The notes under the pieces were generated by a model. The model was not told where the DNA came from. It made no database searches and worked only from the letters and a program-made list of their open reading frames with translations. A stretch of 64,000 bases of DNA. Origin: Tetraselmis striata (lineage: Eukaryota; Chlorophyta; Chlorodendrophyceae; Chlorodendrales; Chlorodendraceae). This document shows positions 43,806 to 64,000 of this stretch, piece by piece. How positions within the stretch are numbered: the first letter of the stretch is position 1; the number at the start of each line of letters is the position of its first letter. Where the stretch lies: assembly GCA_006384855.1 (NCBI GenBank), contig VCJN01003309.1:186001-250000 (forward strand), given 5' to 3'. The position numbers were made by a program, and so were the translations under genes.

Positions 43806-45714
43806 TCCTCAACTTCCTCAACAAATCTTAGCAAGTATAGCACCTAGCTTTCCTCAACTCATCAAGAGTTTCATCAATACGCGGTAAGATATCCCCTTCG
43901 TGTGGAACACAAATAGACAAATAGAAAAGCAGCCGCAAAAATGATCAGTCTGCCAGCTTCGAGTTTCGCTGATGTGTTACACACATCGAGTAATTTTCCG
44001 CCCGTAACATGCCGCGAGCAACATCACATGTTGTTTTGGACCACACATGGATCAGCATCCGTGCGTGCTATTATCATCCGTACGTCCGTGCGTAACCATG
44101 CAAAATGGGGAACGAAGACCCGGTCACCGAGCCGACGACACTCGAATCGCTTAAAGCAGACATGCAAGCCCAGTCTACATTGCTGCTAGAGCTCGCTTTG
44201 TCGTTGGCCCAACAGATGGCGCGACAGCTCGTGGACGCGGTGTTGATGGGGAAGAAGCATATGCCTTTGCTTCATCCGGGCAGCGCGGCTCGGGGCCGCC
44301 GACATGCAGCGGGGGAGCCGCATAGCGCCCCGAATCGCTAACGCCAACCGAGATCGGCCGTGTCAGTTCAGCATCCACGAGTGGCGAGGACGTCTATTTC
44401 ACGGTGGCAAAACTATTGCAGAGCATAGCATGGCTATGAGGACGTTCGACCGGTAAGCATGGTGGATGGGCTCGTACTTCCCGCTGCGTCTCGACATGGC
44501 GAACGACTACCTCAAGCAAGATGACAGGCGTTTGCCGACCATCTTGCTTGGTCGGAGTAGTACATTTGCATGACGTGCTTTGGGACACACACTGCTGATA
44601 TGTTCGTGGCTCTTGACGAGCTGCTACCTTTTGTCCCGGCGGCTAATCAAGACTTTACCCATTACCTCGCGCGTGCTCGCAACCACACCGTGGCTATATC
44701 GACAAGACGTTCCGTTGAAGGCTGGCCTTCCAAAGTGAGGGGGCTGAACGGGATCAAGTATGTACACGGTGACCAGCATGGGGCGTTGGCTGTGCTGCGG
44801 GCTCAGCATTTTTAGCCCGCAGCGGTGCACTTGGGATCTCCGGTCTTTTGCGATATGATGTGCGACTACGAGCGCATGGTTTTCGAGCCGACAGTCGCCA
44901 ACAACGCCAAGGCCACCACTACCGCTACTAGCGTGGGCGTGCGTGGGCAAGGTCGTGACTGCGTGCGGGGTCGCAAAGGTGAGCAATAGGGATGGCGTGG
45001 GGCGCCTTCCCTCGGAGCTGCTGGCGCTTTGCGAGGCCACCTTTCGGTGACCGCCGCACGGCGAACCGTGGCAGCTCAACGACGGGATGAGCGCCCCGTG
45101 TACGGACCGCCCCCCCCCCTCCCCCCCCCCCCCCCCCCCCCTTACCTACAACATACTTCATTTAGACCTTCCTCGGTACGTTTTGATAGGCATCGGGGTT
45201 TTAGGGTTTTCAGGGGCTTCGCGATAGTAAATTGTTAATAAACATAGAGGTTACGAAAGCTTGTTCGGCTTTGAAGCGGGGCTGGCGGGGAGTGTAGACG
45301 TCCTATATTGGGCCCATAGGTCTTACCTGTAGACTCAAGCTCAAGAGCCTTCATGTGGTTTGCGCGCATACAAGTAAAATCGGTGTGCGCAGTGGAAGGC
45401 CGCATGCTTGTCGACAGTGTTATCGGCGAGGTAACGATCCATGATCCAGTTGGTTGGTGGAATTGGCAAGTCGCCAATGCCAGTTGTGGCAGCGTGGAAT
45501 AAATATGTTCCGGCCGGGTACGGGGCGGGGATCGGGCGGTATACCGCGGGGATCGGGCGGTATATTTTAGACAATATGGGACGTCAAGACTTTCCGAGGT
45601 TAAAATGCCAAGCAGCGGGGTAACACAATATATTGGCACGGGTATGATATATCGTGTACTCCTGAGCATATAGTAATGCTGGGTAAATCAGGAATGATGA
45701 TATAGTCATAACTA
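43806..45714 (+). other. gene-poor stretch with small ORFs
   Basis: 44105-44341 encodes MGNEDPVTEPTTLESLKADM and QAQSTLLLELALSLAQQMAR, a possible helical N-terminus; 44570-44815 encodes TADMFVALDELLPFVPAANQ and later VHGDQHGALAVLRAQHF. These read like pieces of one decayed mobile-element gene of unrecognised family, broken in several places. A C-run lies at about 45109-45140 and a telomere-like GGGGTTTTAGGGTTTT at 45195-45210. Confidence 0.3.
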
Positions 45715-46985
45715 CACCTCTCCACATAAGTATAGGGTTTGCGAATTCGTTCTACATGCCCGCTATACACTGAGACCGTTCGCGTGCATGCATGTTACTC
45801 AGGGTCGTACGACTGGGAGGAAATACCGCGATAGCGCGATGCAGCCCATATTGCCACGCGGTAGCCGTTGCCGTCAATACTTTCATTCGGGCAAAAGCAT
45901 GGCTTCTAGCGCTAGCGCTTCAAAACCACAAATTGCGCCACTCGTGTGCATACTTAGGCATGGGACACTACTGCGCTCGTAATCATACCACATCACCCTT
46001 GGTATGATCACTATCCACCACACACGTAGGGCAGTAGAATTATGTCATTAACGACCTGGAACAAGCCCTACGTGTCGATGACGATGGTTTATGTGCAAAA
46101 TCATGGGCAAAATGCGGCCGTGATCGTTGCACGCGCAGGCGGGAGAGGGTTCTCGCGGCCTCCTTGCCGTAGGCTAAAGCTTGTCTATAGTAGTGCATGG
46201 TCGCATGCTCATAGCGCGCCATGGTGAGACCAGTGGGGCGGCAATGGCGTGCACGTTAATGCGTCGATGCTAGTGGAAATACTGTTGTGAAAAAGGGGGT
46301 CCGGCGTAGGTGGCGGCCGTAGCCGTTGGGCACATGCCCCCCTTGGCACATCGCCTGAGGGGGCCATGTGCCAAGAAGTATGAGTGGTCCGTACACAGCA
46401 AGTACACACAACGCACTGTCCTGCCACCGTGTATCAGGTTTTGAGATCCACTTGGCTTAAAGTTTTACGCTAACGTGTTGACCATACGCTGACATAGACG
46501 TCGACTTCGACATATTATTTCTAAAAATGGAAAAGTGGCTAATATGCCTCGGACGACCGTGCTCCTACTGTGAAATCTTTAGCCCTGCTCGTGTACACTA
46601 GTTTTATAGTGGTATTCATATGAAAATCGTCTGACGTTTCCTCGCAACGCATTGAGCCATACCGCAGTTCGAGAACCGCACCACAAGGCGGCACTGCATT
46701 GATGGCGATGGTTCATGCCACATCGCCCACGGGCGCACGCCACTATGGCCCCACCCCAAGCAAAAATACGCCAGCCTCCTTTGCTGACATGTTTCCTCGT
46801 CCACCCACGGCCAGCCCACCATGCACTGATCTATGCATGTGCGGCGGGATGTGCGGGTCACCAACCCCCGTTGTTATGGGGGTACTGGAAACGCTCAGTG
46901 TGGCGCGCGAGTGCCGCTCATGTAGAACACTCGTTTGGGCCAAAGGGCTTGCTTACACCCCATGGTGACAACGGCTGAGCATAAA
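45715..46985 (+). repeat. interspersed non-coding repeat, copy 3 (most complete)
   Basis: The left part matches copy 1 (29635-30700) and the right part copy 2 (43055-43805), so this copy spans the whole unit, about 1.2 kb. There are no terminal repeats I can see, no shared ORF and no tail. Likely a non-autonomous transposable element. Confidence 0.6.
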
Positions 46986-47883
46986 TGTACAACATTCCAG
47001 AATTTCAGGTCATGAACCCTAGATTCAGCTGTCCTACTAATCGTAAGCTCGGATTCGGCGACGAGTAAGGGGCCTATGACACATGTGGAGGGGTGTATGA
47101 CCCAACAGCAGCATGCCGACGAATTTTTATTATAATATTATATAAGCGCACATGCGTAATGTGCGAGGTAATTACACACAGTATGACCAATAACAAATGT
47201 AGATGACGGATCGTTGCGTGTACAGAAACTGGCGTTTCTGCATATAAATCAGCACGTCGAGTCAGGCCCCGGCTTGGAAAAGCTTCTCGGAACAATGCGC
47301 ACGCCGCTCCGCAGCAACATACATGCTAATAAGGGCGAACTCCACCATACCTTCCACGTCGTGGTCGCTACTCTGAGAGGCAATACTGCCACTAGAGTCT
47401 AACGACGGGGCGGTGGAGGCGTTAGCGAGCGCTGGCGCCACCCCGGAGAATAAGCATGGCGCCTCGTCGCCGGCCACAGCGGCCGTGCGAGTCGTTTCGT
47501 CTCTCGCCGGTCCTGCGCCGGCAGCCCGCAACGCTTGCTATGCACCATCGCTAAAGAACCCTTAACCACGAAACGGCTTCGGCAGCCCTGCGGTACATAT
47601 ATAGTGTACCGCGCCTCGCGCGGCCGGCGGCGGGTTGTGGAATGGCGACGGCGCCTGCGGCGCTAGCGAATGGGCCCAGGCCGCAACACCCGCGCTTGAC
47701 TGGGCGTCGAGGTTCCGCGAGGTACCAGTCCGCGATGGTACTTCCATGGAACCCATGGGTACGAAAGGTCAAAATTGGAGGGTGAGTTTTTATACTTACT
47801 TCCACGTTAACAACACGAACTGTCCCGGCAAAAGTTTCCCCCTTCGTTTAGCTGAAGGTCCCTAACATCTTTTAATACTACTT
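46986..47883. other. intergenic stretch
   Basis: A minus-strand frame at 47531-47262 (MRAAGAGPARDETTRTAAVA, then LALISMYVAAE-like sequence) and a plus-strand frame at 47642-47785 are open, but neither shows a motif. Nothing else is recognised. Confidence 0.25.
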
Positions 47884-48351
47884 GCGTCAACACCTGAGGA
47901 CTTAACTGCCTTTATTTTGGGCGGGGTCCCCCCACCCTTCACGGCGCCCCAGATTGTTCTGGGAATGGAAAAACTTTCTACCTATGGCGTCGGGCCCTCC
48001 CTTATCACATTGCCTTTTTGTTGCACATGTATCGCACTCCCGGAATGCTTTGTTCCGCGGGATGGGCTTGCCCCAACTCGCATTACTCGAATGGGCCGAC
48101 GCCCAAATGGGCAGGGCGGACCTCTCGTGGTTAGTGCCGGGCATTTTGATGGCAGTGTTTTAGACGGTGATTGTTGGAAATTCCGTCCATGGCCTCAAAT
48201 AAGTCTTGCAGAATGCTTCGGCAATTTGCTTGATGACTATAACGGAGCGTCGCCTACCCAGGGCTTTCCGTAACTGGATCGCTGCCTAAACGGTCGTCGT
48301 GGAGAGGCTGCAAGGGTTTCACTGGTGCCAGTCCTGTTCCGGGTGCGGAAT
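47884..48351 (+). mobile_element. 5'-truncated 3' end of the APE-type LINE
   Basis: Begins at the residues GCGTCAACACCTGAGGACTT, equivalent to 39134 in the long copy, keeps the end of the ORF (GLAPTRITRMGRRPNG) and stops at GTCCTGTTCCGGGTGCGG. About 5-8 percent diverged with a few small indels. No clear duplication flanks it. Confidence 0.85.
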
Positions 48352-48379
48352 TAACTGATGCTTTTAGCGCGGATTTAGT

Positions 48380-48560
48380 GTTGACAGTTTTCTGTAATTC
48401 ACACCAGTACCAGTGCGGGTGCCGTGTGCGCATCACTCATCCATCCCGCCTTATGCGGGATGCGGGCCGCTTTTAGGCGGCTTGCTGTGTTGATTTTCTA
48501 ATTCTGGGGAACTGCCCTTTTTTTGTAATTCACACCAGTGCGGGTGCCGACGCACCCAAA
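48380..48560 (+). repeat. hairpin repeat, copy 2, flanked by GTAATTCACACCAG motifs
   Basis: 48438-48540 is almost identical to 13258-13352. It is bracketed by two direct copies of GTAATTCACACCAG (about 48392 and 48526), each followed within 15 bases by GTGCGGGTGCCG, so the hairpin block may have arrived with, or been duplicated between, these motifs. Confidence 0.6.
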
Positions 48561-49191
48561 AGAAAAACACAGTTAAAGACTTTTGGGGGTCGGTAAGCGC
48601 ATTTTTAACGAATTTAGCCTTCGCAGTATATTCGTTGTGATATCGTTTTTGAACGAGCTACGAAAGGCGACCATTTTCCTATAGGCTTATAGCGCAGTTT
48701 CTCGTGGCCGTGTCGCACCCGCATTGAATAAACCCTACAACCAACGACTACTGATCCTTCCCAGGTACAGGTACCATACATACCGCTCCCCGCATCAGTA
48801 GCGAGAATTATAGGGGCTATAGAGAATCAATAATTAAAATGGAACACCGCCCGCAAAACATAATGAGGACATTTTGGCTTCGTTATCACCTGCTGTCCGC
48901 GCTGCTGGACGGCAATTGCCGAGAAACGAGCCCAGACGTAAAACCCCGTCGCAGCTGTCCCACAACCGAAGCACCAGTCCTCTATCCTTCTGTCGCACAC
49001 GAAGAACAGCCGTTCACCGCTGCAAGACGCCGGCTCGAGCCTACAGTCTTGCTCTTGCAGCTTCACGCGTGACTCGGGGCCATACCTGACACGTGACTCG
49101 CACTGAAACTTTAAACTGCGCCTCTCTGCGATTGCCAAGCCATTTCCCTAGCAGCTTGCACACGGCAGAGTGAAGGCGCCCCCGGCACAAT
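48561..49191. other. 5' flank of the carbonic anhydrase gene
   Basis: No gene supported. An open frame at 48839-49072 shows no motif. No TATA-like element is placed clearly. Confidence 0.3.
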
Positions 49192-51147
49192 ATGATGCGC
49201 CAACGCGCAACGGTCTCGGCAATTCTAGCCACCCTGGCTGTGGTGGGACTGACGTCTCGGTCATTGGCGGCTGTGCTTGGCGGTGGGTCGCTGGTCCCCC
49301 CCCCCCCCCCCCCCCCACCACCACCAGTGATCAGCTGCTCGCGGAAAAGGCGACTAAAACCATCCCCCTCAGTAGAGGATATGAGCGAAGCCGCACCGTC
49401 CATCGCCCCGGGTTCACACCGATTCCAGTCTATCATCACGTTGAAGCGCTTTCGCTTCGGGTGACTTACTGGTTTCGCCGGTGTTCGCCGGGCCCTGTCG
49501 GAAATTGTCCAGAGACGACTCACCGACTCTACTGCCGTCCCCTCACGCAGATGTGGCGCCTGTCGGCCCCTACGGTCACTCCTTTTGTCCCGGTGTCGAC
49601 CCCGCGACGCAGTCGCCACTGGCCATAGTAAAGGATCAGTGCGAGATAATTGCAGACGCGGCGCCGATAAACCACACGTGGCTGCATCAGCCTCTGCCGA
49701 TGGACCTTGCCACCGGAACGGTCTCGATCCCGGGGCCTGTGGTCGTGAAGTTGTCCAACGCCACCATGTACATCAACGTGGAGCCGAATCGCTTCAGGCT
49801 GTACCATGACGGCCTCAATTACTCGATGACCCAGGTAAATATTCATATTCGGGCGCCGCAAACCTGAAGTAAAGAGCAGAACAGCGGTCGCATGCCGTGG
49901 AGTGGTGTCACCCCCCCCTTCCGCGCGTGCGCCGGCGGCCTCCCGTTTGTGTTTTCAGCAAGATTGGCGATATCATTTCCCCGTGCAGATGCATGTCCAC
50001 CTTCCTGCCGAGCACGCCATCGACGGGACTCTTCCGCAGATGGAGCTGCACATGGTGCATGTGGTAAGGAAAACAGCATGTCTTCCCCAGACTTGTGGCT
50101 GCACATGTTCTCAAATCCAAATATTCGAGCATTTGATGACTTCGATGCACAAGTGGAGTGCATAGCTATCTGGAGATGTAGATTAGTGGATGTAAACTCA
50201 GAGAAAAATGATGTTACTGAGCGTGTGACTGCCATGTGCAGAACAATGCCAGCGAGATCGCGGTGCTAGGCTTCGTGTTCAAGCTGGGGGCGCCCTCGCA
50301 ATTCATGGAGGCGTTTCTCAACCATCTTCCCCCACCCACCATCAACAACAGCACCAACACGACTGAGTATGCGCCAGGCGAAGTTTCGGTGAGTGCATCC
50401 CTCAGCTCACCGCAGATATGTTTGGTTGACATATATAATATTATATATACATACATACATACATGTGTATATACACATATATGAGTATACATATATATTT
50501 TGCTTGGCTGACCGGTTGCTATCCCTCCCTGCAGCTCCCAAACGGTCTACCCATCAAGGCTCAGGAATGGGCCCAGATAGAACACGCGATGGCTGGGCCG
50601 TTCTTCTCCTACAATGGCTCGTGCGTGGCCCTGACTCTCAGTCTACATGACGATTAGCCATCCCAATCGCATTTTGTCCCTGCTGCGCACAATATCTTCA
50701 TCTGCCCAGTGGCGCTCATCGAGCAGCCTGATGCGTGCCCCAATCCGGTGCAGGCTGACAACTCCTCCATGCGCAGCTGGAGTGCACTGGGTCGTGTTTG
50801 AAAAGGACTGGGGCCTCACCCTCTCCCGCGACCAGATCAAGCAGTTCCAGAGGATCCTTCATGACGTAAGCGCATAGTCTGCTTGTCTCGCTGCTGCACC
50901 CTCGGCCCACTCATCTCGTGCGCGCCAATGGTGACCGTGTGTGCGTTTGTCGCAGGTTTCTGGCACTGCCACATCTGTCAACAACCGCGTCCCGTTCCCG
51001 ATGAACGGCCGCCGGGTCGAGTACCACAGCGTGGACATCGCCAACGCCATCTACAACACCAAGCTGCAGGACGCCCAGAGCAAGCAGCTCAACCCGCATG
51101 TGATGGCAGGGCCGGCGGCACGGAAGCTGCTCAACACGGCGCAATGA
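49192..51147 (+). CDS. secreted alpha-type carbonic anhydrase, seven exons
   Basis: Exons 49192-49282, 49551-49834, 49989-50063, 50242-50388, 50535-50620, 50754-50865 and 50956-51147; 328 residues, all junctions in phase. It starts with a signal peptide (RATVSAILATLAVVGLTSRS). The zinc site is complete: MHVHLPAEHAIDG gives the first two His and ELHMVH the third. NGSLTTPPCAAGVHWVVF carries the Thr gate and the conserved Cys; the partner Cys is in GHSFCPG, next to QSPLAIV. The enzyme interconverts CO2 and bicarbonate, here in the periplasm or wall space by signal peptide; it probably helps inorganic carbon uptake. The N-terminal Trp-Tyr part of the fold is shorter than usual. Intron 1 has a 22-base C-tract 13 bases after the donor; intron 4 has an AT repeat. 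The gene is convergent with the tRNase Z-like gene, 631 bases apart. Confidence 0.92.
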
Positions 51148-51778
51148 AGTGGAGTGCTGCTCCATGCGGCTCGTAGCTCGGACTATCGAACCTCACGGCG
51201 AGGGCAATAGGCATACGTGGCTAGAACAAGCAGGCGTCGCTGCTCCTGTGAATGCGAGTAGGCCAGGGTGGATGTACGGGCTGCCGACATTCACTTGCCA
51301 CCAGGGCTCTGGTGCCTCCTGAATTGTACCCATCCGTGACTTCCCCTGCTCCACTGCCGGATATGCCTCCCACCTCTGTTTGGCGCTGTGTGTGCTCAGC
51401 AGTGCTGGGCAGTCGTGCAGCGGATTCGCAGGATGTACCTGAGGCCGTTTAGCCATCCCGCGCCGGCTCTGTGACGGCCCGCATGTGGCCTGCCGGGCGG
51501 TTGTGAGCTGCCAAATCTGCAGCCTTACATGCGTTTACGCCGCGGTGTCTGCGCCAATGCTCCCCGCCCCCGCCAATGGGGTTTCTCCTGTACATGCCAT
51601 TGCCATGTATCCCATGACATGCCACGTCACTATACAAAGGCCACCAGATAAGACGTGACAGACACTAGTCCCTGCATAGAGACCGCGTGATACCGCACAG
51701 CGGTATCAATTGGCTCCTCCTGGCGCCGTGCCGGAGGTCATGGGCTCTGCGTGTGCTGAACCACAGCAACGGAGCCCT
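51148..51778. other. convergent intergenic region
   Basis: Lies between the stops of the carbonic anhydrase (+) and the tRNase Z homologue (-). TTACA at 51525-51529 is TGTAA on the minus strand, 250 bases past the tRNase Z stop. No gene seen. Confidence 0.4.
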
Positions 51779-52510
51779 TCACACGCCCCGAGGCCTCTCC
51801 CCCTCCCGCCGCGGAACGCTAAACTGAAACTGGTCAAAGCCGGACGCCACGGCGTGGCGGTGCCCAAAGGCCTCCGCCGCCGCGCTGTGGTGCGCCGCGC
51901 TCGCGGCCTCCAGCGCCGCGCGATCCGAGTCCGACAGGTCGTCGTTCTTCCCGAACCGGTCGAAATGAAACTGCGGGGCGGCGGCACAGGGTACGCAGTC
52001 TGAGGCAAGCTAACTGGAGCATTGGCGGCAGGGTTTTAGGGTTTTATAGGACATCCGCACCACGTGGCGTGACGGGGGCGCCCCGAAAAGCGCCAACGTG
52101 CCCCGAAAATGCCCAGAATGCTTCGGCCATCGCAATAAAAAGCACGAAGAGCGGCAACCCGTAAAGTAAAGTAAAGTAAAGTTCGCCCGGGACATCGGCC
52201 GAAGCCGCCCCAGCGGCAAACCCGTATTCAGCCACATCTCGCTGTCCCTCAAGTGTTGGAACAGCAGTGTCTCGGGTTGCGATCGCCGGACTCGCCTTTG
52301 TGGAGACGTGCGTGAGAAGAAGCCCCTTGGCGCCCACCGCCTTGGCAAAGCGCCCCGCCTCCGCGGAGCAGCAGGACCGCTGCATCGGGGCCTGCGCCGC
52401 ACGTACGCCCCGTGTTATAAAACCAACCGCCAGGCACGCAGTCGCTGCGTCGGTCCGGCCCGGCAGTGGACCTAGGGCAGCGCTGCTGGGATGAGGACGG
52501 CCTCGGCGGC

Positions 52511-52551
<41 letters not shown>

Positions 52552-53702
52552 CTGGGTGAAGGCGCACCGAGGGATCTGGCGCGTTCTGCGCCGCGTACAG
52601 GAGCAGGTCGCAGCCCTTGGCCAGCTCCGCGGTGGCGGCGCCGGGAGCGGTGCACTCGGCGACTATCACCACCTTGCGCCCCGGCCGGTCGGGGCCCACC
52701 ACCTGCGCAGTGAGCGCACGCCCGCTCAGCCGCGGCGCCTCCTCACGTCGGGAACCACCTCCCCAGTATCTCAATAACCATGGTTTCGGAGTATTTCATG
52801 TGCAGGTCGATATTCAAGCTGTCGACTCACCCAACGGACCCCGTAACCCCCCCCCCCCCCCCCCCCCACCGCCACCACCATTGGGAAAGAGGAGCAGAAA
52901 GTACAGTTATCATCAGGAAATCGAACAGCACGCACACACCACGAAAAGCTGGGGCGGCTTCGGCCGATGTCCCGGGGCGAACTTTACTTTACTTTACTTT
53001 ACCACGAAAATTGTGCGTATTTCCTGACGCAGTGGTGTCAAACACGGAATAAGTGCTTTTTGGACCCGTAATGAACCCAATATACTGTCCGCACCATTCG
53101 TTTCGGTCCAGGGGGATGGGTGGGTAGGTCGGCCCCATACCAGAAACAGGCGCAACGCGCCCCCCCCCCCCCCCCCCCCTTCCCCTGCCCCCTCAATACC
53201 TGTTTTAACCGAAGCTTCGCCAAGGCCGGTAACATCATTTCAGCAAATGCTGTGGCGTGCTCCGAAACCATGGCACTTCAGCCGGAGAGGAGCGGGGTGC
53301 GGTCCGTGCATCCAATTCAAGCAAGGGCAGAGGGGGGAGAGGGGGGGGGGGGGCTTGCCTGGTGCGGCTCTATCGTGACGCCATCAACCTCGATGGACTC
53401 GCCCGCCTTGAGCTGCGCCAGCATCTTGCCACGCGGGATGCCCAGCGCATCGCTCGCCTCCACGTCCACTTTGCCCACTTTGCGCGGCTCCTGCGCGCCC
53501 GGTGCGAGGTGGGTCACTACGCCTACGCTATAAATCACCCGCCCTGCGCCTGTCAGAGGTCAGATGCAGACGAAACTAAAGCGGAACTATGGCTAATGGT
53601 CTTATAGGTTGCATGCAAGCCAAATTTGATGCTTATAATAAGGGCTCTTCTAGGGGCGTCGGCACCCGCACACTTCCTGCCTTAGGTCATCGTACGCCAC
53701 CT

Positions 53703-53763
<61 letters not shown>

Positions 53764-54704
53764 CTGGGGGGGGGGGGGGGGTGCACCTCCACGCAGAAGG
53801 CAAACGTAGGGGTGTCCGCGACGCAGGCCGCCGCCGTCACAACATAGCCGCCATCGCAGGCAAAGGTCCACGTCAGCTCATCCGCGGCCTCGAAGCCGCC
53901 AGTGCTCGCTGGGCCTTGCCGCCGCACATCCTGCGTTGCCTGCCATTCCGATGCGCCCAGGAGATTCACGGCCAACAGGGGGGGGGGGGGGGGGGGGCAG
54001 TCAGCACGGCAGGGACCCACATGCATGAACAGATTGTGTCGGGAATGCACTTAAGGACATGCGGGTGGGACATATAAGGTGCGAATGGCCAACATACATA
54101 CTGTATGTATCTATTTTGTGTATATGTGTATCTGTATATATGCATATCAGGTTACCAAGGCCGACTTGGTGCTACTCGTGTCCGCTTCCCACAGCCCCAC
54201 ACCGTCCGCACATCGGAAAGGATGAAACGCACTTCTCCCCATTCACCTGTCCGCCTTTAATATATGTGTATATATAAAATTGGCGGCCATTATCCAGCGA
54301 AGCGTCGATTTTTCGGCGGTGAGCTTTATTGCCGTACGGTACCCGTATAGTGCAGCGGATCGGGCCTATAGGTGCATGAATAAAGCGCTTATCTACTGGA
54401 ATATACTACTAAGTACTATAATCCACCCACCCGCCCACCGCCCGCCCGCCCGCCCACGGTCCTTAATTACACAGCCGTCTGATTACGATCTCACGGCTGG
54501 TACTGGTACTGGTACTCGCTACTCGCTGCTGGTATTAATGGAAAAAAAAACTCAAAGCGCTGGCAATGCAAACGCTCGCTGCTGGTACTTCAAAGCGCTG
54601 GCAATGCGATTCATGAAACTGAACTCATGGAGTGATATAGAACCCGTTCTTTTAAAATTTTCTGAAAAATCGACGCATCGCTGATCCAACTGTCAAGTTA
54701 CTTC

Positions 54705-54748
<44 letters not shown>

Positions 54749-55645
54749 TATAATAATATGACGTAGGGGTGGGGTATAAATTCGTATACACATAAGAATA
54801 CATATATCTAATATATATATTGTATGTATGTATGTATACCATCTATGTATATTCACCTGGCCACCTGTATCTATATGTTATATATATCTAACATATACAT
54901 GTTTATACAAATACAATTTACAATACATGTACATATATGTATACATGTGTATATATAGATGCACATATACATATTGTTTTATATATGTATACTATACATA
55001 TTGTATGTATGTATGTTATATATATTGTGTGTAATACAATGTGTATATATAGTGTATGGTATACATATTATATATGCACACATATATATGTATGTAAAGA
55101 TGGTGGCCAGGTGAATGTGGGGGTGTGCCTTTTATCGTTCCGATGTACGGAGGTGTGGGGCGGGTAGGTACCGGACGCGATTAGCAACAAGTGCGCCTTG
55201 GTGACCTGGATATAGCGAGGTTGCATCCAGGAGAGGGTAGGGGGGGGGGGGGGGGGGGAAGGAGCGGGATGGGGACCAAAGGGGGGGGGGGGGGGGGGGG
55301 GGGGGGGTCGCACACCTTCAGCTCCCGGCTGTTGACCTTCCCAGCAAACAGGCCGTGCGCCGCGTCCGTGGGCCCCTCCGGATTCACCTGATCCGGTGGG
55401 ACCTGCACACAGACGCCCGTTGCATCCATGTGCTCAGCGCCGCGTGCGGCCATCGTCCCCACCGCCATGCCCAGGTTCATGTAGGTCAGGGATGCGGGCG
55501 CGGCGCACCTGTATGCGGGTGAGCTTGGCACGCCGAGTCAGCGGCTCCGGCTTGGTCTCCTGGGGGCCAGGGGGCGTGCATTATGGTTAGGCAGGGCTAG
55601 ACTGATGCGGCATCTGGCGAGCGAGAGGTTGGGGGGGGAGAGGAA

Positions 55646-55676
<31 letters not shown>

Positions 55677-56977
55677 CGCTCACGTGCGGCGCCAACGCGC
55701 CGGGCGCCATCTCGTAGATGTCGACAGGCATCGCGATGAAGGTCTTGGACGTGCTCATCACGCAGTCAACGTACGCCGCCAGCCCCGGGGGGCCCACTAG
55801 CTGCAGCAGCCCCCGCTGCCCGGCCGGCCGGTCGCCGGTCTGGTTGGCGGAGGAGATGGTGCAGAGCAGGCCCTGCAAGCCGAGCACGTGGTTGGGCGCC
55901 ATGCTGCTGACAAAGATGCGCGTGATCTGGCCGTTGCGGATGTCGGTGCTGTGGATCTGCCGCTGCAGGTCCTCGCCCGCGTTGAATGCCCACACCTCAT
56001 TCATCATCGACAGCATGGCGTTGCTGCTCAAGAAGGGCGAGCCCGTGATGTCGGGTGTGGCTAGCAGCATCACGTTCATGTGCTGCCCGCCGCAGTCCAC
56101 CTCCGCGCTGTGCACCAACGGCGCAAGACCCCCCGCGCCCGACTCCCCCATGCCGGACGCACTCCCCACCCCCACCCCCCCCCGCATCCGCCGCCCTCCC
56201 ATCGCCGGCCGCGCCCTCGTCAGGCAGCCTTCCCGCCTCCGCCTCCATCTGCAAGAGCGCCGTCTCATCCTCCGCCTCCCCGAGGTCCGCCTCCACCAGC
56301 TCCTCCGCTTCCGCTACCTTTTCCCCATCCCCCTCCTCCTCCTCCTCCTCTTCCTCCTCCTCCTCGTGTCCCTCCTCCTCCGTGATGGCCTCCTCCGTAA
56401 CATCGCCGCCACCTCCGACAAGCTCCTCCTCGCCGGTGTCGCCGTCCTCCGCGCTGGCGCTGAGCCCCAGAAAGTTGTCCAGTAGGTCGTCCTTCAGCTG
56501 CTGCAGCAGCGCCTCATCCCCCGCGCGTTCCTCCCCAAACTCCTCCGCAATCTCCAGAGCCAGCACCTCCTCCAGCTCCAATTCCACCGCCTTCATCAGC
56601 TTGCTCGCTAGCGCCGCCTTGGTTGACTGACCCCGCGGCGCGCCGCGCGCCACGAGCTCCTCGCGCAGCCCGTCGCGCGTGAATGCCTGCACCAGGCTGG
56701 CCGCCGTCAGCGCGTCTGGCCGCTTCCCCTCCGGCCACGCCACGCAGTCCAGCCCGATGCCGCTGAACCACGCCAGCTCTTCCGACGCTTCGCCGCCCCG
56801 AGCCGCCACGGGGGCCGCCGGGGCTCGCAACCCCTGCGGCGCCCACACACCCAGTGGGGGCGGAAGCGTACGACGTAGCGGCGCACGAGTCGCGCCCCGT
56901 CTGGCTGACGGCGCAGCCCCGCTGGTCCGCCGGCGTCCGGCCGCCCAACGGGGCAGGCCGGCCACCAGCGCCGCCAT
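51779..56977 (-). CDS. SAP-domain tRNase Z homologue with degenerate catalytic motifs, nine exons
   Basis: Exons: 56977-55684, 55559-55509, 55402-55316, 55205-55172, 53914-53787, 53490-53359, 52702-52568, 52391-52296, 51970-51779, about 715 residues. N-terminal transit-like leader, then a SAP motif (DGLREELVARGAPRGQSTKA), an acidic Glu-run region and a tRNase Z-type metallo-beta-lactamase fold: WAFNAGEDLQRQ (family GEGTQRQ), ITRIFVSSMAPNHVLGLQGL (family THxHxDH), VTAAACVADTPTFAFCVE, VDVEASDALGIPRGKMLAQL, VVIVAECTAPG (family GDT), CDLLLYAAQN (family HEAT), GLLLTHVSTK and VASGFDQFQFSVPRR. Most zinc ligands are absent, so cleavage of pre-tRNA 3' ends is unlikely; a structural or RNA-binding role is possible. 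The frame shifts once at the C-run near 56165-56183. Junctions of the 34-base exon are tentative. Two introns use GC donors (after 53359 and 52296). The N-half of long tRNase Z is similarly eroded, but this C-terminus is that of a short form. Confidence 0.78.
52162..52214 (-). mobile_element. mini-retroposon tail, copy 1 (in last tRNase Z intron)
   Basis: Minus-strand sequence GCTGGGGCGGCTTCGGCCGA, TGTCCCGGGCGAA and (CTTTA)4, 53 bases. Flanks are CGGCAACCCG (52152-52161) and CGGCAAACCCG (52214-52224), an imperfect 10-11 base duplication. It lies in the intron between 52296 and 51970, opposite in orientation to copy 2. Confidence 0.7.
52513..52551 (+). repeat. 39-base G homopolymer
   Basis: On the sense strand of the tRNase Z gene this is a 39-C tract beginning 16 bases after the donor at 52567. 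It is the longest homopolymer in the window. Confidence 0.9.
52948..53001 (+). mobile_element. mini-retroposon tail, copy 2 (in tRNase Z intron)
   Basis: 54 bases: GCTGGGGCGGCTTCGGCCGA, TGTCCCGGGGCGAA and (CTTTA)4. It has a perfect 9-bp flanking duplication, CCACGAAAA (52939-52947 and 53002-53010). Repeat-tailed end plus variable-length duplication is the signature of LINE-driven retroposition of a short RNA. Confidence 0.78.
53704..53762 (+). repeat. (TG)n microsatellite next to a G-run
   Basis: About 28 TG units at 53704-53762, directly followed by a 16-G run (53766-53781). Lies in a tRNase Z intron beside a 5' splice site. Confidence 0.9.
54711..55100 (+). repeat. (TA)n tract and ATGTATAC-rich DNA in the long tRNase Z intron
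   Basis: 54711-54752 is TA dinucleotide repeat; 54790-55100 is a degenerate mix of ATGT, ATAC and TATA units. It forms much of the 1257-base intron between 55171 and 53915. No coding content. Confidence 0.8.
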
Positions 56978-57250
56978 CCCGCCGCCGGGCGCACCAAGCT
57001 CGCCTGTGGAAGGTGCCCGGGAATTCGCGAGGAAGGCGGCGGATGTGCGGGGGCGGCCTGGCGACGCCCTATGGGGGTGGTCAACACACGTTGTCGCCTG
57101 AGGTGTGTTCGGTGCCAATGCGCGCAATGCTCCCCATCACTCCGCCGCCGCCACTATTAACTGAGGATTACCTGTATCAGTGATTGGTTTTGTTACACGG
57201 GGTGATGGGTTAGAATGTAGCCGAGTCTGGCGCAGGCAAAGCACTACATT
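56978..57250. other. 5' flank of the tRNase Z-like gene
   Basis: The frame is open upstream to 57127, so the start could lie earlier. The region contains no other gene and runs into the paired repeat element. Confidence 0.3.
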
Positions 57251-58124
57251 CCCCTACCTCTTGGGTTGAGCGGAGGAAAAGGAGAGCCGCGTCCGAAATC
57301 GCCTGGAATATGAGAGAATCAATACCGGTTACAATACGGTTTTATCACGGAGTTTTAGGCGTCCGTCCTCCGTCCTCCAGTGCTGCGTCTTCGCGTATGA
57401 ACCGTCATACGTTCGATCTGTGATCGTTTGATTTCTAGGATGACCTCCGAAGACGGCAAGATTCTCAATGGATGCGCGTGTATTCTAGCCCAGGCACGTC
57501 ATGTATTCGTCTGAAACGCCAAAATAACGCGGTACCGCAGCGCGTTTTTATTGCTGAATCAGCAAGCGAGACTCGCCCTCTATATTTATACAGCGACTAT
57601 ATACACGGTGGTCCGAGGATATGCTGTAACATGATGGTAGTGTAAAAAGGGGTCGCCGCGGTGCGGGGGCAGTCCGCCGACCCGGGGCCCGGCGTCCGTC
57701 GACGGACGGGCGACGGTCGAACGACGGCGTCCGGCGTCCGGTGCCGGTACAGGCGGCGGGCGTGGCGATTCGCGCCGTGCCCGCCCCGTAGACCTGACGA
57801 CCGGCCCGACCTGCGCGGCCTCGTGCGGGATGCGGGCCGCCTGTAGGCGGCTTGTACTGTATTGCTGATCTTGCAGTGCTGTTTTTTTTTTTTTTCCTTT
57901 AGCGGTGGGTTGGGTACCGGCCTTTTTGTAATGCACACCAGTAGTCGGCGGCCCGCTTTTACGCGGCTTGCAGATTTAATCTGTTTTACAAAATAATACG
58001 TCTCTGTTGAAAAATAAATTACTGACAGATCTAACGCTAAAAGCATTATTACCCGGAAACAACAGTATTACAAGATCAACACTACTGTACACGGCCGCAC
58101 CACGCTCAACCCAAGAGGTAGGGG
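57251..58124 (+). mobile_element. inverted-end element, copy A
   Basis: An 874-bp unit that starts CCCCTACCTCTTGGGTTGAG and ends with the exact complement, CTCAACCCAAGAGGTAGGGG: about 21-bp terminal inverted repeats. Inside are a homopolymer T run, the hairpin GCGGGCCGCCTGTAGGCGGC and GTAATGCACACCAG. Similarity to copy B continues 38 bases past the right end. No transposase-like ORF; a non-autonomous DNA transposon is likely. No clear target duplication. Confidence 0.6.
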
Positions 58125-58560
58125 CACCTCCACAGATCCCCGGCGCGAAGCGCCGCTTAGTGTAGACGCTACCGTAGTAATTTATCTTTTTGGTTACAGG
58201 GAGAGCGTCAAGAGAATGCACGGAAAGTACTGGGGAAGGACACCGTACACCGCGTAGTAATCGTCCCGCTGCGTCCTCGTCGCGCTGCGCCCGACACCGC
58301 GCGCTTCGCTTACCGCCGTGCACATACGATTTGCGGATAAATAATGACGTTTTCGAACCCCCCCCCCCCCCCCCCCCCCCCCCCACCTCCCCCCATCCGC
58401 GCGCCCGCGAAGAGGAAAACCGTATATTAAATTGGAGGAATAATACAGCATACATCACGAATATATCATGAGAACTCCGAAAGAGAGGTGCAAAACAATT
58501 CATTATTCTATGGCCCTGCGAACCGTATTTTATTCTACGGTAAGCCGGTATTCACAGATT
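58125..58560. other. spacer between the two inverted-end elements
   Basis: About 0.4 kb with a 27-base C-run (58358-58384). The first 38 bases also follow copy B. No gene seen. Confidence 0.4.
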
Positions 58561-59473
58561 CCCCTACCTCTTGGGTTGAGCGGAGGAAAAGGAGAGCCGC
58601 GTCCGAAATCGCCTGGAATACGAGAGAATCGATACCGGTTACAATACGGTTTTATCACGGATTTTTAGGCGTCCGTCCTCCGTCCGTCCTCGTGTGCTGC
58701 GTCTTCGTGAATGAACCGTCATACGTTCGATCTGTGCTCGTTTGATTTCTAGGCACACCTCCGAAGACGGTAAGGTTCTGAATTGATGCGCGTGTATTCT
58801 AGCCCAGGCACGTCATATATTCGTCTGAAACGCCAAAATAACGCGGTACCGCAGCGCGTTTTTATTGCTGAATCAGCAAGCGAGGCTATTCAGCGACTAT
58901 TCCTTACCTATACGGTAGTCCAAGTATGGTGCTGTAAAAAGGGGTCGCCGCGGTGCGGGGGCAGTCCGCCGACCCGGGGCCCGGCGTCCGTCGACGGACG
59001 GGCGACGGTCGAGCGGCGGCGTCCGGCGTCCGGTGCCGGTACAGGCGGCGGGCGTGGCGATTCGCGCCGTGCCCGCCCCGTAGACCTGACGACCGGCCCG
59101 ACCTGCGCGGCCTCGTGCGGGATGCGGGCCGCCTGTAGGCGGCTTGTACTGTATTGCTGATCTTGCAGTGCTGTTTTTTTTTTTTTTTTTTGGGTAGTAC
59201 AACTTTTAGCGGTGGGTTGGGTACCGGCCTTTTTGTAATGCACACCAGTAGTCAGCGGCCCGCTTTTACGCGGCTTGCAGATTTAATCTGTTTTACAAAA
59301 TAAATTAATACGTCTCTTTTTGAAAAATAAATTACTGACAAATCTATCTAACGCTAAAAGCATTATTACCCGGAAACAACAGTATTATTACAGGATCAAC
59401 ACTACTGTACAAGCCGGCTAAAAGCGGCCCGTATCCCGCACGGCCGCACCACGCTCAACCCAAGAGGTAGGGG
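58561..59473 (+). mobile_element. inverted-end element, copy B
   Basis: 913 bp, roughly 92-95 percent like copy A and in the same orientation, with identical ends. Differences include a longer T run and an extra ~28-base segment near 59411-59439 that complements the internal hairpin sequence (CGGCTAAAAGCGGCCCG). Direct duplication of a whole element or two insertions of one family. Confidence 0.6.
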
Positions 59474-59577
59474 CACCTCCACAAATCCCCGGCGCGAAGC
59501 GCCGCTTAGTATTGAAATGCACGAGAGAAAACTGCAGATGAGAACTAAACCGGTAAATAAGGTTTCTATCGCGTAAC

Positions 59578-61557
59578 TCAACGTAACCTAATGTAAAGTA
59601 ACTTTAATATGTCAATACTGGCGGACAAGGTACATCCCTTGTCCACACGGTTGAGCGGTCGTCTTGTACGCGAGAGGTCCCAGTACCGATTCCTCTCCGA
59701 CGTATTTTCGGCAATACCGTCCCGGCGGCTTCCACCTGGGTCGGGAGACAAAAGCGGAGCCAATACTTCGCCTTGTGTTGCATGCAATGCTTGAGCAATT
59801 TCCATGCGTGATGATGCAGGGCATGGGCGTACCGACGGTTGGGCTTGGTAGATATATAGGAGCTTGCTCATCATGCTGGCGTCCACCTCCTCGTGTAGCT
59901 CCGCCGCCTTGCGGCGCATGTAGCCATGCACGTACCATGGCGATCCGAGCGGCACGTTGAGGACATGGATGCCGTGGTGACCATCCATGTCGAGCCACTC
60001 GATGTCGGCCGGAGCCTCGCGCTGCGCGGCCTCCATGTCCGCGGTGTACGTGTGCATCTTGTCTAAGCGCGCCTCAAACCCCTCGGAGGCCTTGATGGAC
60101 GTGGGCAAGGCGTGAAGGGCCGGCCAAACGTGCTCCGGCGGGCCTACCAAATATCCTCCGCGTTGAAGCGCGCCGGCCCGCCAATGGTCTCCAGCGTGGT
60201 GTCTCACTCCTCCACTACTTCGGGGTGAATCGCGACGCATAAGGATCTCGTGGCGAACGGCGCGCCATGTTGCACGTTGTCCTCCGACCGAAGAGGGGCG
60301 GACCGATCGTCCACGAGCAGAAAAGCATCCGTGGGCAGGGAGTAGGCTAGCAACGCGGGAATAAATGGGTGAAGAGGAGAGCAATAAATATGGCTTTGGA
60401 TGATGGTGCAGCGCCACGCCTCGTTGCAAGCGTTGCGAAGATCAGTGTGGACGATGACGGCGCGCGGGCCGGGCATCTCGGTGATAAGGCGGACCCCGCG
60501 CGGCTCCGCCTCACTGACTGCCAGAGGCCGAGCGTCCGGGACACCGCCCGCGCCTACTTTATTGACAAGGGCCACAAGCCTTGCATAGCCTAATAGGCGA
60601 CTAGCCGATTCAACCAGCCGGGTAGGCGACCTTGGAGGTATACATGTAGGTCACCTCCGGCATAGCGCGAAGTAATTGTCGCATATGCCGCGACGCCGGG
60701 GCATATTCGCCCACGAAGCAACGTAGATACTCGTTGCGCATGCCTGAGGGCCCCACCGCCATGTGCTGCTTGAGCTGTTGGTATACGGCACGCGCAGGTC
60801 CACCGTCATGGCGGCCTTGTCGATTGGAGTATCATACGCAGCGTCTGGTTTCCGGTGGCTACGGGACGGGGGCTTGTCACGCAGCTGAGCGAGGATAGCA
60901 AGACCGGATATGTCGCCCATTCCCTTGGAAGACATGCGGTCCGCCGCTCAAGAGATCTCTCCGTCCTCTACCGCCAACGCCACAACGGTGTCCGCGGTGC
61001 CCAAGAGCAACGCCGCAAAGAGGTTAGCATCCGCCCGAGGATGGCGGGCATGTCCCGCATAGATCGCCTCGGTGCGGGCGTCATCCCATGGCCGCACGAA
61101 TTCGGCCATGCGCCGCTCTGCGGATGCGTGGAAGCGCCACGCCAAGGTTTGCTACCGCCGCCGCCCGACTCGGCTTGGGGTTTGCTCCGAAACCAGTGAA
61201 AGCAATTCAAAAGATCCGATCATGTCATATACACGCGGGCAACCGCATATATAGCCATACAGCGGTACACGGGCAGCCGAGTACTGGTATACCGCGCTAT
61301 ACTCGTATCGACACCGGGCAGCCGAGTATCGGTACGAGTATAGCTAACACCCTTCGCAAGAGCCGCGGCAGCAAATGCTTCCACTTCAACGCCCTATCCA
61401 ACGCCACGGGGTCGTGTGATACATGTTCAAGGTAACGTGCATGACTGCCGGCACCTAATTCGCCCACAGAAATTTCGAGGACAAATTTGGGGGACCCGCA
61501 ATATAGTTTCCCGTCAGGATCGTTGCGCCGAATCCTGCTGATCTGAAAGGCCGGCAA
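59578..61557 (-). pseudogene. worn reverse transcriptase of a second LINE group
   Basis: The minus strand encodes RT-like pieces in order: DPVALDRALKWKHLLPRLLR (N-terminal region, near 61.4 kb), RPLAVSEAEPRGVRLI, VIVHTDLRNACNEAW (motif A), SEDNVQHGAPFATRSLCVAI and HPEV (motif B, about 60240-60330), then in another frame HALPTSIKASEGFEARLDKM and HGIHVLNVPLGSPWYVHGYM (regions after the active site). The YADD motif is not recognisable. Reading frame changes several times and stops occur, so it is dead. It differs clearly from both other LINEs here; the single-ORF style with NACNEA is closer to the R2-like group. Confidence 0.6.
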
Positions 61558-62480
61558 TAAGGAAGGGCATCTCCGTGTGACGAGGGCTGCCGGATTAATC
61601 CGCGTGGTTGAATAATATCATCATCACTGCGGGTGAACGTGCGTGGAGGTCAATTTTGACTGCGAGAGGGGGGGGGGGGGGGCGAGCGGCAGCACTTCCA
61701 AATATGGTGACCCCCAAAGCTACGAGTTTTCACAATAACTGCACCGCCCCCCACCCCCTTTTCAAACGCGCCGTATACCCGTGTACCGGTGCAAAGGCGG
61801 AGGATGCTGCCCCAAGAATTTCATGAGCCGATGTCGTGCCACCTACGGGCACCGTGCGACTGGGAGCACCCCCCCCCCCCCTCTCCTCCTTCCCCCCCGG
61901 GTCGCCCTCTATGGCCGGTAGGACCGCGAGCCGGCGCGGATTGTGAGCATCATCTTTATAAACACGTATGGGTTGATAGTGAAGGGATACAACCGTATTA
62001 TGACTCGGATATTATCATATTAGCGCTGGCGCAAGTATCCCCGGTGGCTAGCTTCACTCCCCAGCCAAATCAGCCATGCGACCAATAAATCACACCCCCT
62101 CGTGGCTCGGGACATGCGCGAGTGGACTCAGCCTAGGGTGGGCGCAAGGGAATGGGCGAGAGAGGCGAGCGTGTTTGTCCGGACCGCCAGCGCAGCAAGC
62201 GCCATCATCCCCGCTTTGCTATTGCGGGACGAACACGCAGTAGTCGCGAGGTCGCGATTTTGTACTGCGCTGCCTACATAATATAGGTATCGGAATGACG
62301 GTATCCGTATAGTTTAAGTCGAACGTGAAAATGTTGTGTTCGCTTCACACTCCTCATATCCCGCGTGGAGTTGGAAACCCAACAACCCTCCGAGGGCATA
62401 TTGATCGCCACACCTACCCCCCAAACATGTCCGCATGCTCGCCCCATAGAGACAAGTAAAGGGCGGAAGAATCGAGGTGA
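61558..62480. other. gene-free stretch
   Basis: A G-run at 61670-61682 and a C-run near 61869. No credible ORF. Confidence 0.35.
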
Positions 62481-62489
62481 CCGGATAAG

Positions 62490-63178
62490 TGGACGGTCCG
62501 GGGTTGAACTGCGATTTCCCGGTCTCATTTTCGTGGTGCACAGTGAGTTGTACTGGGCGAGACCGTGATGCAAATCCTCCTCATTGTTCCTTGATAATCG
62601 CCGCCACACTTTGGTTGCATGAGTTCACTGGTCGTTCTGGCCATCATACTACCCGGGAACTTAGCTGACCGGGGCGCTTAATGGTAGAGCGAGTGACTAA
62701 GAATATATGTCAGTCGGTGGCTCGATATCGGCCGGGCCGTGAATGCATACAGTCGTCACTGCATGTCCGTACATGTACTGTCTTATCCCGTAATAAAGAC
62801 GAAGTGATTCGATACCAGCGTACGTCGCGACTTGAATGTGGTCTTTAAAAAAGGGCTGAAGCATGGATAGGTTGGCTGGTCCCATCTCGCCTATAGGCCG
62901 TATGTCTGGATTACGAGTATTTTGATCCCGTGGCACTACCGGCAATCCTTTACAAGCCACGTTGTCTGTCCGCACGGTAGAGCGGTGGTCTCCGACTCAA
63001 GACGAGGTCCCCGGATCGATCCCCGGCACTAAAAAATCAGGGTGATATATATCGACCGGGCCCGTGCGTGTCCCGGGTTTACCCGGTTGATGCATTAGCC
63101 CGTCGTCGGGGTTCGAATCAGGCGACGGTCTAATGGCTATGCCAAATCTACGACTACATTTGGGGCACCATGTCAAGT
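62490..63178 (+). repeat. cluster of tRNA-like (Pol III box-like) sequences
   Basis: Two stretches carry A-box- and B-box-like motifs about 35-45 bases apart: AATGGTAGAGCGAGTGAC with GGCTCGATATC (62680-62735), and CACGGTAGAGCGGTGGTC with GGATCGATCCC (62973-63025). A third has only a B-like GGGGTTCGAATCAGG (63107-63121) and a weaker one GGGGTTGAACTGCG lies at 62500. None folds into a good tRNA cloverleaf, so they are better read as heads of tRNA-derived SINEs than tRNA genes. Confidence 0.4.
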
Positions 63179-63222
63179 GCTGGGGCGGTTTCTGCCGATG
63201 ACCCGGGGCGAACTTTACTTTT
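63179..63222 (+). mobile_element. mini-retroposon tail, copy 3
   Basis: GCTGGGGCGGTTTCTGCCGA, TGACCCGGGGCGAAC and TTTACTTTTA match the two copies in the tRNase Z introns with four or five changes and a shorter tail. It directly follows the tRNA-like cluster and may be the end of a longer SINE whose body lies upstream. Confidence 0.55.
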
Positions 63223-63350
63223 AGTCGCTGTCGCGCGCGTGGGTGTATTCGTCGATAATAAAAACTTCCAAATAACTATCCACGGCACCTTTTGATTTCA
63301 TCGTGGTTTTCGCACAGGGAATCCTTTATATTTGTAGTGACACACTGACA

Positions 63351-63727
63351 CGAGCTAGCTGCAAAAGGCGATTAGGAAATCACCCAAAAAGAAAATATAG
63401 GAAACGTCCTACAACAATTGCGAGGTGGAAACAACACAAGAAGAGGGTGCGGAATGACCACGGGCAAACGCATCAGACTTGGCCGTCTGCACTCCTGCAG
63501 AGAGAATGCTGCCCAGGGTACCATGCACGCACGCAAAGACTCGCTGCAACAACCCCAAACCCTGAACCGAGCGAAAGGTGATGGCGGAACTCATCGGGTT
63601 GGTTGGCGACAAAGTTCCGAAGAGCCTGGACGGACTTGCCACGTAGGAAGCATGAAGTCGGGGCGGAAGGACCGCCAGGGAAGTTGCGCACAGCAAGCAA
63701 CACCGTGAAGATGTAGACCACCGTCAA
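63351..63727 (-). mobile_element. 5'-truncated 3' end of the R2-like LINE
   Basis: The minus strand encodes VYIFTVLLAVRNFPGGPSAP, SVQALRNFVANQPDEFRHHL and, in a shifted frame, GLLQRVFACVHGTLGSILSA, matching the C-terminus of the 8629-12357 ORF, then the shared 3' UTR ending CGCCTTTTGCAGCTAGCTCG. One small frameshift region is visible near 63575. Confidence 0.8.
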
Positions 63728-64000
63728 AGCGGTTTTTCCGAGGCGACCTAATATTTATCCTTTATATTTAAATTCTTGTATTTTCGCATCCACGCGCGCG
63801 CGGCGGCCCTCCCGCGTGTGCTGACCCAATAACACGGTTTTGTCGCTGCTGAATACCACCCCACGACTACCCGGTACCCCGGGCATGGCGTACCTGCAGT
63901 TGGCGACTACCTGTACTATCCTATCAACATATATTTCAAGGTGTCAACGTGTATAAGAGGGTTTATGTATATCCCACTGGCATTCCGTCGTCTTAAAAGG
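63728..64000. other. window end, nothing assigned
   Basis: No ORF or repeat recognised. Confidence 0.4.

Follow-up and report, generated by a model that had tools for sequence, protein, structure and literature searches.

The window analysed here, 64,000 nucleotides of the Tetraselmis striata contig VCJN01003309.1, carries on its minus strand (ATG at 56977, stop at 51779) a gene for a tRNase Z homologue in which the loss of motifs is selective: catalytic positions are lost, while the flexible arm is retained. We conclude with strong confidence that its product is a pseudoenzyme. A relative on C159 in the same genome shows the reverse pattern, and it is this combination, selective loss in the window protein and its mirror image in C159, that is new; a literature search found no paper combining "tRNase Z" and "SAP domain". 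Because the losses in the two genes are reciprocal, they suggest that two genes share the job of one long enzyme, and we tentatively propose that the window protein is the non-catalytic, arm-bearing partner of an active C159 chain, a division of labour like that of the long form, tRNase ZL, but distributed over two genes.

The initial annotation of the window had read five degenerate motifs from the letters, and all of them hold. Motif II reads SSMAPNH (55888-55908; family THxHxDH, of which the last His alone is kept), the remnant of motif I reads GEDLQRQ (55957-55977), exon 6 (52568-52702) has AEC for the GDT of motif IV and YAAQ for HEAT, and exon 7 (52296-52391) has QRSCC at the GHST region, with SCC standing at the HST columns. 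There is one loss more than the annotation had listed, that of the motif III His to Ala in exon 4 (53787-53939; ACVADTP, continuing to ACVADTPTFAF through this strand region). The His of motif V (LLTHVS, also in exon 7) is kept. The seven zinc ligands, H,H,D,H,H,D,H in the family, thus become S,A,N,H,A,E,H, with two of seven kept, and because the ligands read this way the catalytic zinc pair could hardly be bound. Compared with a catalytic short-form tRNase Z, then, the protein lacks both the set of metal ligands and the HEAT and HST proton-transfer motifs.

The selectivity can be measured against a reference alignment of 78 prokaryotic proteins (from the best 80 of 520 confirmed loci, two of odd length having been dropped). 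In this alignment 54 positions reach a conservation of 85% or more, and the window protein keeps 34 of them: two of the 12 catalytic positions, compared with 32 of the remaining 42 (p = 3.2e-4). Conserved glycines are kept at 10 of 12. The position classes were defined after the alignment had been seen, using known and published motifs, and the catalytic class consists of the seven ligands, the Asp of motif I, the Thr of HEAT and the three residues of HST.

The flexible arm, by which active enzymes bind the tRNA elbow (described in the available text of PMC3714273), is present between motifs III and IV as a single 44-residue, phase-0 exon with a GC donor (exon 5, 53359-53490). All five conserved arm positions are kept. 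Scored with an arm profile that combines the prokaryote rows with an ELAC1 fragment, this exon reaches 41-42 bits (measured on a second copy of the gene, on C704), near the 44 bits obtained for the arm of the genome's long-type gene.

By its matches, the domain is a descendant of a short, bacterial/ELAC1-type tRNase Z. The homology claimed in the initial annotation exceeds chance: TIGR02651, the model of bacterial-type RNase Z, matches with E=1.6e-39 (135.7 bits, below the equivalog cut-off of 292.95), and among solved structures the human short form ELAC1 is closest (3zwf, E=1.6e-30), followed by bacterial RNase Z chains (E 2.9e-24 to 2.4e-21). Long forms match more weakly, 5mtz (874 aa) with E 2.4e-4 over the arm region and ELAC2 with 0.005-0.014 in its N-half. 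Pfam gave no match above cut-off for the whole protein and one below it, PF13691 "tRNase Z endonuclease" (E 0.056). For the first half of the domain, which is contiguous, an AlphaFold2 model built from the window frame and 36 of the 78 prokaryote rows has a mean pLDDT of 81.8 and finds ELAC1 as its first match in the PDB. The gene does end after one domain, as had been noted, with a single half and then the stop. It is therefore not of the tRNase ZL (ELAC2) type, which tethers two metallo-beta-lactamase (MBL) halves in one chain, and as a green-plant relative lacking at least one catalytic motif it falls among the green-algal tRNase Z-like proteins (TLPs). The assembly's rbcL frame (475 aa, on C1177), whose best match is PDB 1gk8 from Chlamydomonas reinhardtii, agrees with a green-algal host.

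The second copy came to light in a search of the assembly to which the window belongs (224 Mb in 2903 contigs). C704 is collinear with window positions 45438-63780 except for a few insertions, and for this reason its copy is most likely the other haplotype. A G9 run inside exon 1 (56175-56183) puts a 1-nt frameshift into the window copy, whose protein comes to 712 residues once one base of the run is omitted; the C704 copy has G8 there and is open across all eight exons, for 710 residues. Over the 428-residue domain the two copies differ by six synonymous and no non-synonymous substitutions, an outcome with a chance of 2.4e-4 to 6.5e-4 given a non-synonymous opportunity of 70.5-75.0% (kappa 4 to 1), taken from the domain's own sequence. 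Exons 2-8 hold no indel column in 846 and three substitutions, against 113 indel columns in 3642 and 64 substitutions in the non-coding remainder, although indel columns are not independent of each other and many fall in homopolymers. In exon 1, 13 of 17 substitutions lie within the acidic tract and the linker following it (56417-56155), where the copies also differ by a 6-nt indel. The first 190 codons show one replacement (Leu50Ser) and one synonymous change, and the 116-residue stretch holding the SAP-like motif shows no difference.

The domain is thus under constraint now, the evidence for constraint being confined to it, and since it shows six synonymous differences against no amino-acid difference, the gene is not a pseudogene; the initial annotation had named a lack of constraint among orthologues as what would make it one. 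The comparison of the two copies therefore also supports the exon calls. An alternative exon that restores motif II is very unlikely, because both copies carry the dead motif unchanged, within a single open exon.

Two stretches of the window (57247-58156 and 58559-59510) have no counterpart at the collinear place on C704 and are possible mobile insertions. Near-equal pairs of matches were seen for C102/C398, C1842/C1199, C890/C2473 and C704/C2671, the last pair having been compared base by base. Such pairs suggest that the assembly retains two haplotypes at many loci, and these loci would be material for selection tests.

The relative on C159 (C159:157125-164800, L033) is a short tRNase Z gene that, its first exon apart, encodes a clear SAP domain (PF02037, 43.8 bits on a 50-aa piece, above the cut-off), then an acidic linker, then tRNase Z. 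Its motifs are THHHGDH, GDT, HEAT, HST and LTHFS. In C159 the conserved positions are kept at 12 of 12 catalytic, 1 of 5 arm and 30 of 37 other sites, whereas the window protein keeps 2 of 12, 5 of 5 and 27 of 37 (Fisher test, catalytic versus arm, p = 0.0021 for C159 and 0.0034 for the window protein). What stands for an arm in C159 is a 23-aa exon (EPRRLVDITPEMANRHMLSGNTQ), which opens like the window's arm exon (EPRK...). No full arm exon was found between the two exons that flank this place in C159: the best of 348 phase-0 candidates reaches 0.3 bits, a value exceeded in 17 of 20 shuffled versions of the gap (range -0.7 to 6.4), and a control exon scores 42.3 bits. In both genes the arm exon is bounded by two phase-0 introns, and these agree in alignment position and phase: the 5' junction falls between PTFAFCVE and EPR in the window gene and between PTFGYCFL and EPR in C159, and PGRK forms residues 7-10 of the exon after the arm exon in both. 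Random placement would give at least two such matches with a chance of about 2.5e-4, calculated post hoc. Both proteins also have an insert between strands (DAAHGLFAGKVNSR / DVCNLWYAGAVPSR), which in the window gene is carried by exon 3 (29 aa, 55316-55402); it is matched by tblastn with E 0.006, the match including the strand that follows.

Under the two-chain proposal, the window protein would be the substrate-binding chain, supplying the flexible arm for the tRNA elbow, and the nearly arm-less C159 SAP-tRNase Z, with its full catalytic motif set, would supply the cut. Through their SAP motifs and acidic linkers the two chains may be tethered to nucleic acid or to one another, and the enzyme would probably be located in an organelle. 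The parallel is with long tRNase Z, in which a dead N-half bears the arm and an active C-half is arm-less, but with two genes in place of one. What has been observed is the loss of motifs, the retention of the arm, the constraint seen between the two copies and the mirrored pattern of C159; the fold of the first half is predicted by the model.

A number of points weigh against this proposal. The activity of C159, dimerisation or complex formation, tRNA binding and the compartment are all matters that we infer. For the seven metal ligands alone, retention (2 of 7, versus 32 of 47 elsewhere) gives p = 0.057. The 4-kb intron of C159 could conceal an arm exon whose divergence puts it beyond the reach of the profile. 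Neither the window domain nor C159 is the other's best match: of 80 targets, C159 ranks 73rd for the window domain and the window domain 78th for C159, which argues against their paralogy; among the best six matches listed for each, four are cyanobacterial in both cases. In trees both lie on long unplaced branches, and their sisterhood is neither shown nor rejected by the approximately unbiased (AU) test (p-AU 0.44, or 0.25 with ELAC1 added), the corresponding values being 0.17 for the window protein with cyanobacteria and 0.064 for both with cyanobacteria, on a tree that used 45 of the 78 prokaryote rows, after removal of 21 archaeal rows and 12 more, near-duplicates among them. The arm of the window protein has its GP motif altered to PRGK; that motif is perhaps not essential (available text of PMC2942849). 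The genome has other candidates as well, which could do all of the processing: long-type tRNase Z genes on C102 and C398 (probably two haplotypes), a second long-type-like gene on C915 (L145:4731, L034:2219-4409, with SHKHADH and LTHFSQRY; the arm profile found no arm in its 18 kb, best 6.6 bits, E 1), and further MBL matches such as that on C1972.

It is possible, if rather doubtful, that the window protein is instead a stand-alone non-catalytic RNA- or tRNA-binding protein, such as a chaperone, a splicing factor or a nucleoid factor, working without C159. This is near the view of the initial annotation, which is supported in part, firmly so for the loss of catalysis. The same conservation, SAP and acidic features and retained arm fit it, and pseudoenzymes frequently gain new roles, but the reciprocal loss in the C159 relative is left unexplained. 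We regard as unlikely a pairing with an intact nuclease in the manner of INTS9/INTS11, in which the window protein would be a pseudonuclease with a structural or recruiting role and its arm would not hold tRNA. An acidic tract and a changed GP motif speak for this, as does the existence of pseudonuclease/nuclease pairs in the superfamily (available text of PMC7980224), but the arm is intact at five of five tested positions and scores 41 bits against 44 for the long form of this genome. That the gene is a pseudogene or an artefact of its model, as the frameshift in the window copy and the long tree branch might indicate, is most improbable given the open C704 copy, the contrast in indel columns between exons 2-8 and non-coding sequence, and the purely synonymous differences in the domain. 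Only slightly less improbable is a residual one-metal enzyme of different activity, using the last His of motif II, the Glu that replaces Asp in motif IV and the motif V His. With the ligands assigned to the two metal sites as we presume, three of the four residues about the second metal could still act as ligands, but none of the three His of the first site remains (now S, A, A), nor do the HEAT and HST residues. On balance we retain, tentatively, the two-chain proposal.

Inheritance of an already dead cyanobacterial protein like sll1036 was considered and set aside; a standard enzyme above the RNase_Z cut-off is present in six of six cyanobacterial genomes (nine loci taken up, sll1036 being outside the comparison). 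One of the loci, L120, proved to be the standard enzyme with its reading begun at an internal Met, and four others (L127, L128, L132 and L137) yielded short, incorrect frames only. The extra RNase_Z matches L124, L125, L126 and L133 are full-length with other motifs (HSHWDH and alike), match the window domain with E 0.009 at best, and represent a different kind of MBL protein.

Exon 1 (55684-56977) encodes a putative transit peptide, a SAP-like motif, an acidic tract and the first half of the tRNase Z domain. Residues 1-62 (56792-56977), with 11 Arg, 16 Ala and no Asp or Glu, form a putative organelle-targeting N-terminus on composition only. The SAP motif of the initial annotation (residues about 97-131, 56585-56689) is weak in the window protein alone, where PF02037 scores 14.2 and 16.8 bits on two pieces (E 0.0055 and 0.034, cut-off 23.9); a structure model with one sequence as input (pLDDT 50.8) speaks neither for nor against it. 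The call gains weight because the C159 relative has a clear SAP domain, likewise ahead of an acidic linker. The acidic tract (56192-56587) is as had been described, with 53 Asp/Glu among 132 residues.

The gene model was obtained by translating the minus strand from 56977 to 51779 in three frames and joining exons at consensus splice sites, which confirmed both ends of the gene as annotated and gave eight coding exons in place of the nine proposed: 56977-55684, 55559-55509, 55402-55316, 53939-53787, 53490-53359, 52702-52568, 52391-52296 and 51970-51779. All junctions are in phase 0, exons 5 and 7 have GC donors, and the acceptor of exon 4 was picked from several AGs using phase and homology. 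Exon 2 (17 aa) encodes an insert between strands, and exon 8 the C-terminal part and the stop. Long poly-C runs lie within about 20 bases downstream of several 5' splice sites (GTGAGCGCCCC..., GTGTGCGACCCC..., GCAAGCCCC...), in the introns at window 55683, 55315, 53786, 53358 and 52567 of this gene and in introns of the C159 gene, and may be a wider intron feature of the Tetraselmis striata genome. A 31-nt inverted repeat, 97% complementary (GTAAAGTAAAGTAAAGTAAAGTTCGCCCGGG; 52161-52191 and 52972-53002, in introns 7 and 5), brackets exons 6 and 7 and is MITE-like.

Among known systems, the nearest likeness is the N-half of tRNase ZL (ELAC2), where a dead metal site and a kept arm stand beside an active, arm-less domain, and the long enzyme is thought to have originated by tandem duplication of a tRNase ZS gene whose halves then specialised (available text of PMC3714273). 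The window protein differs in being the product of a separate gene, of bacterial/ELAC1-type sequence, with a SAP-like motif and an acidic tract ahead. Fan et al. (2011) described tRNase Z-like proteins in C. reinhardtii and V. carteri (CreTLP1/2, VcaTLP1) that are, like the window protein, relatives of tRNase ZS lacking motifs and considered inactive; compared by description only, many TLPs are without the flexible arm and have all other motifs, the reverse of the window protein and a better fit to C159, and the available text does not mention SAP for them (PMC3161902). Synechocystis sll1036, again by description only, is similar as a short tRNase Z-like protein lacking conserved motifs and reported to have no tRNase Z activity (cited in the available text of PMC3161902). 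The paired short forms of basidiomycetes, one arm-bearing and one arm-less, have been proposed to make a tRNase ZL-like heterodimer, but active-site loss in the arm-bearing chain and SAP do not figure in the available text (PMC2942849). If the two-chain proposal is true, the tRNase ZL split held in two separate genes would give a direct view of the logic of duplication and specialisation, the "inactive" green-algal TLPs would become testable subunits, and a tRNA-processing example would join the nuclease/pseudonuclease pairs of the superfamily. INTS9/INTS11 and CPSF100/CPSF73 differ from the window protein as MBL/beta-CASP enzymes with other RNA substrates and are not known to have the tRNase Z flexible arm. 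Their likeness to the proposed pair lies in the coupling of a pseudonuclease with an active nuclease within the metallo-beta-lactamase superfamily (available text of PMC7980224).

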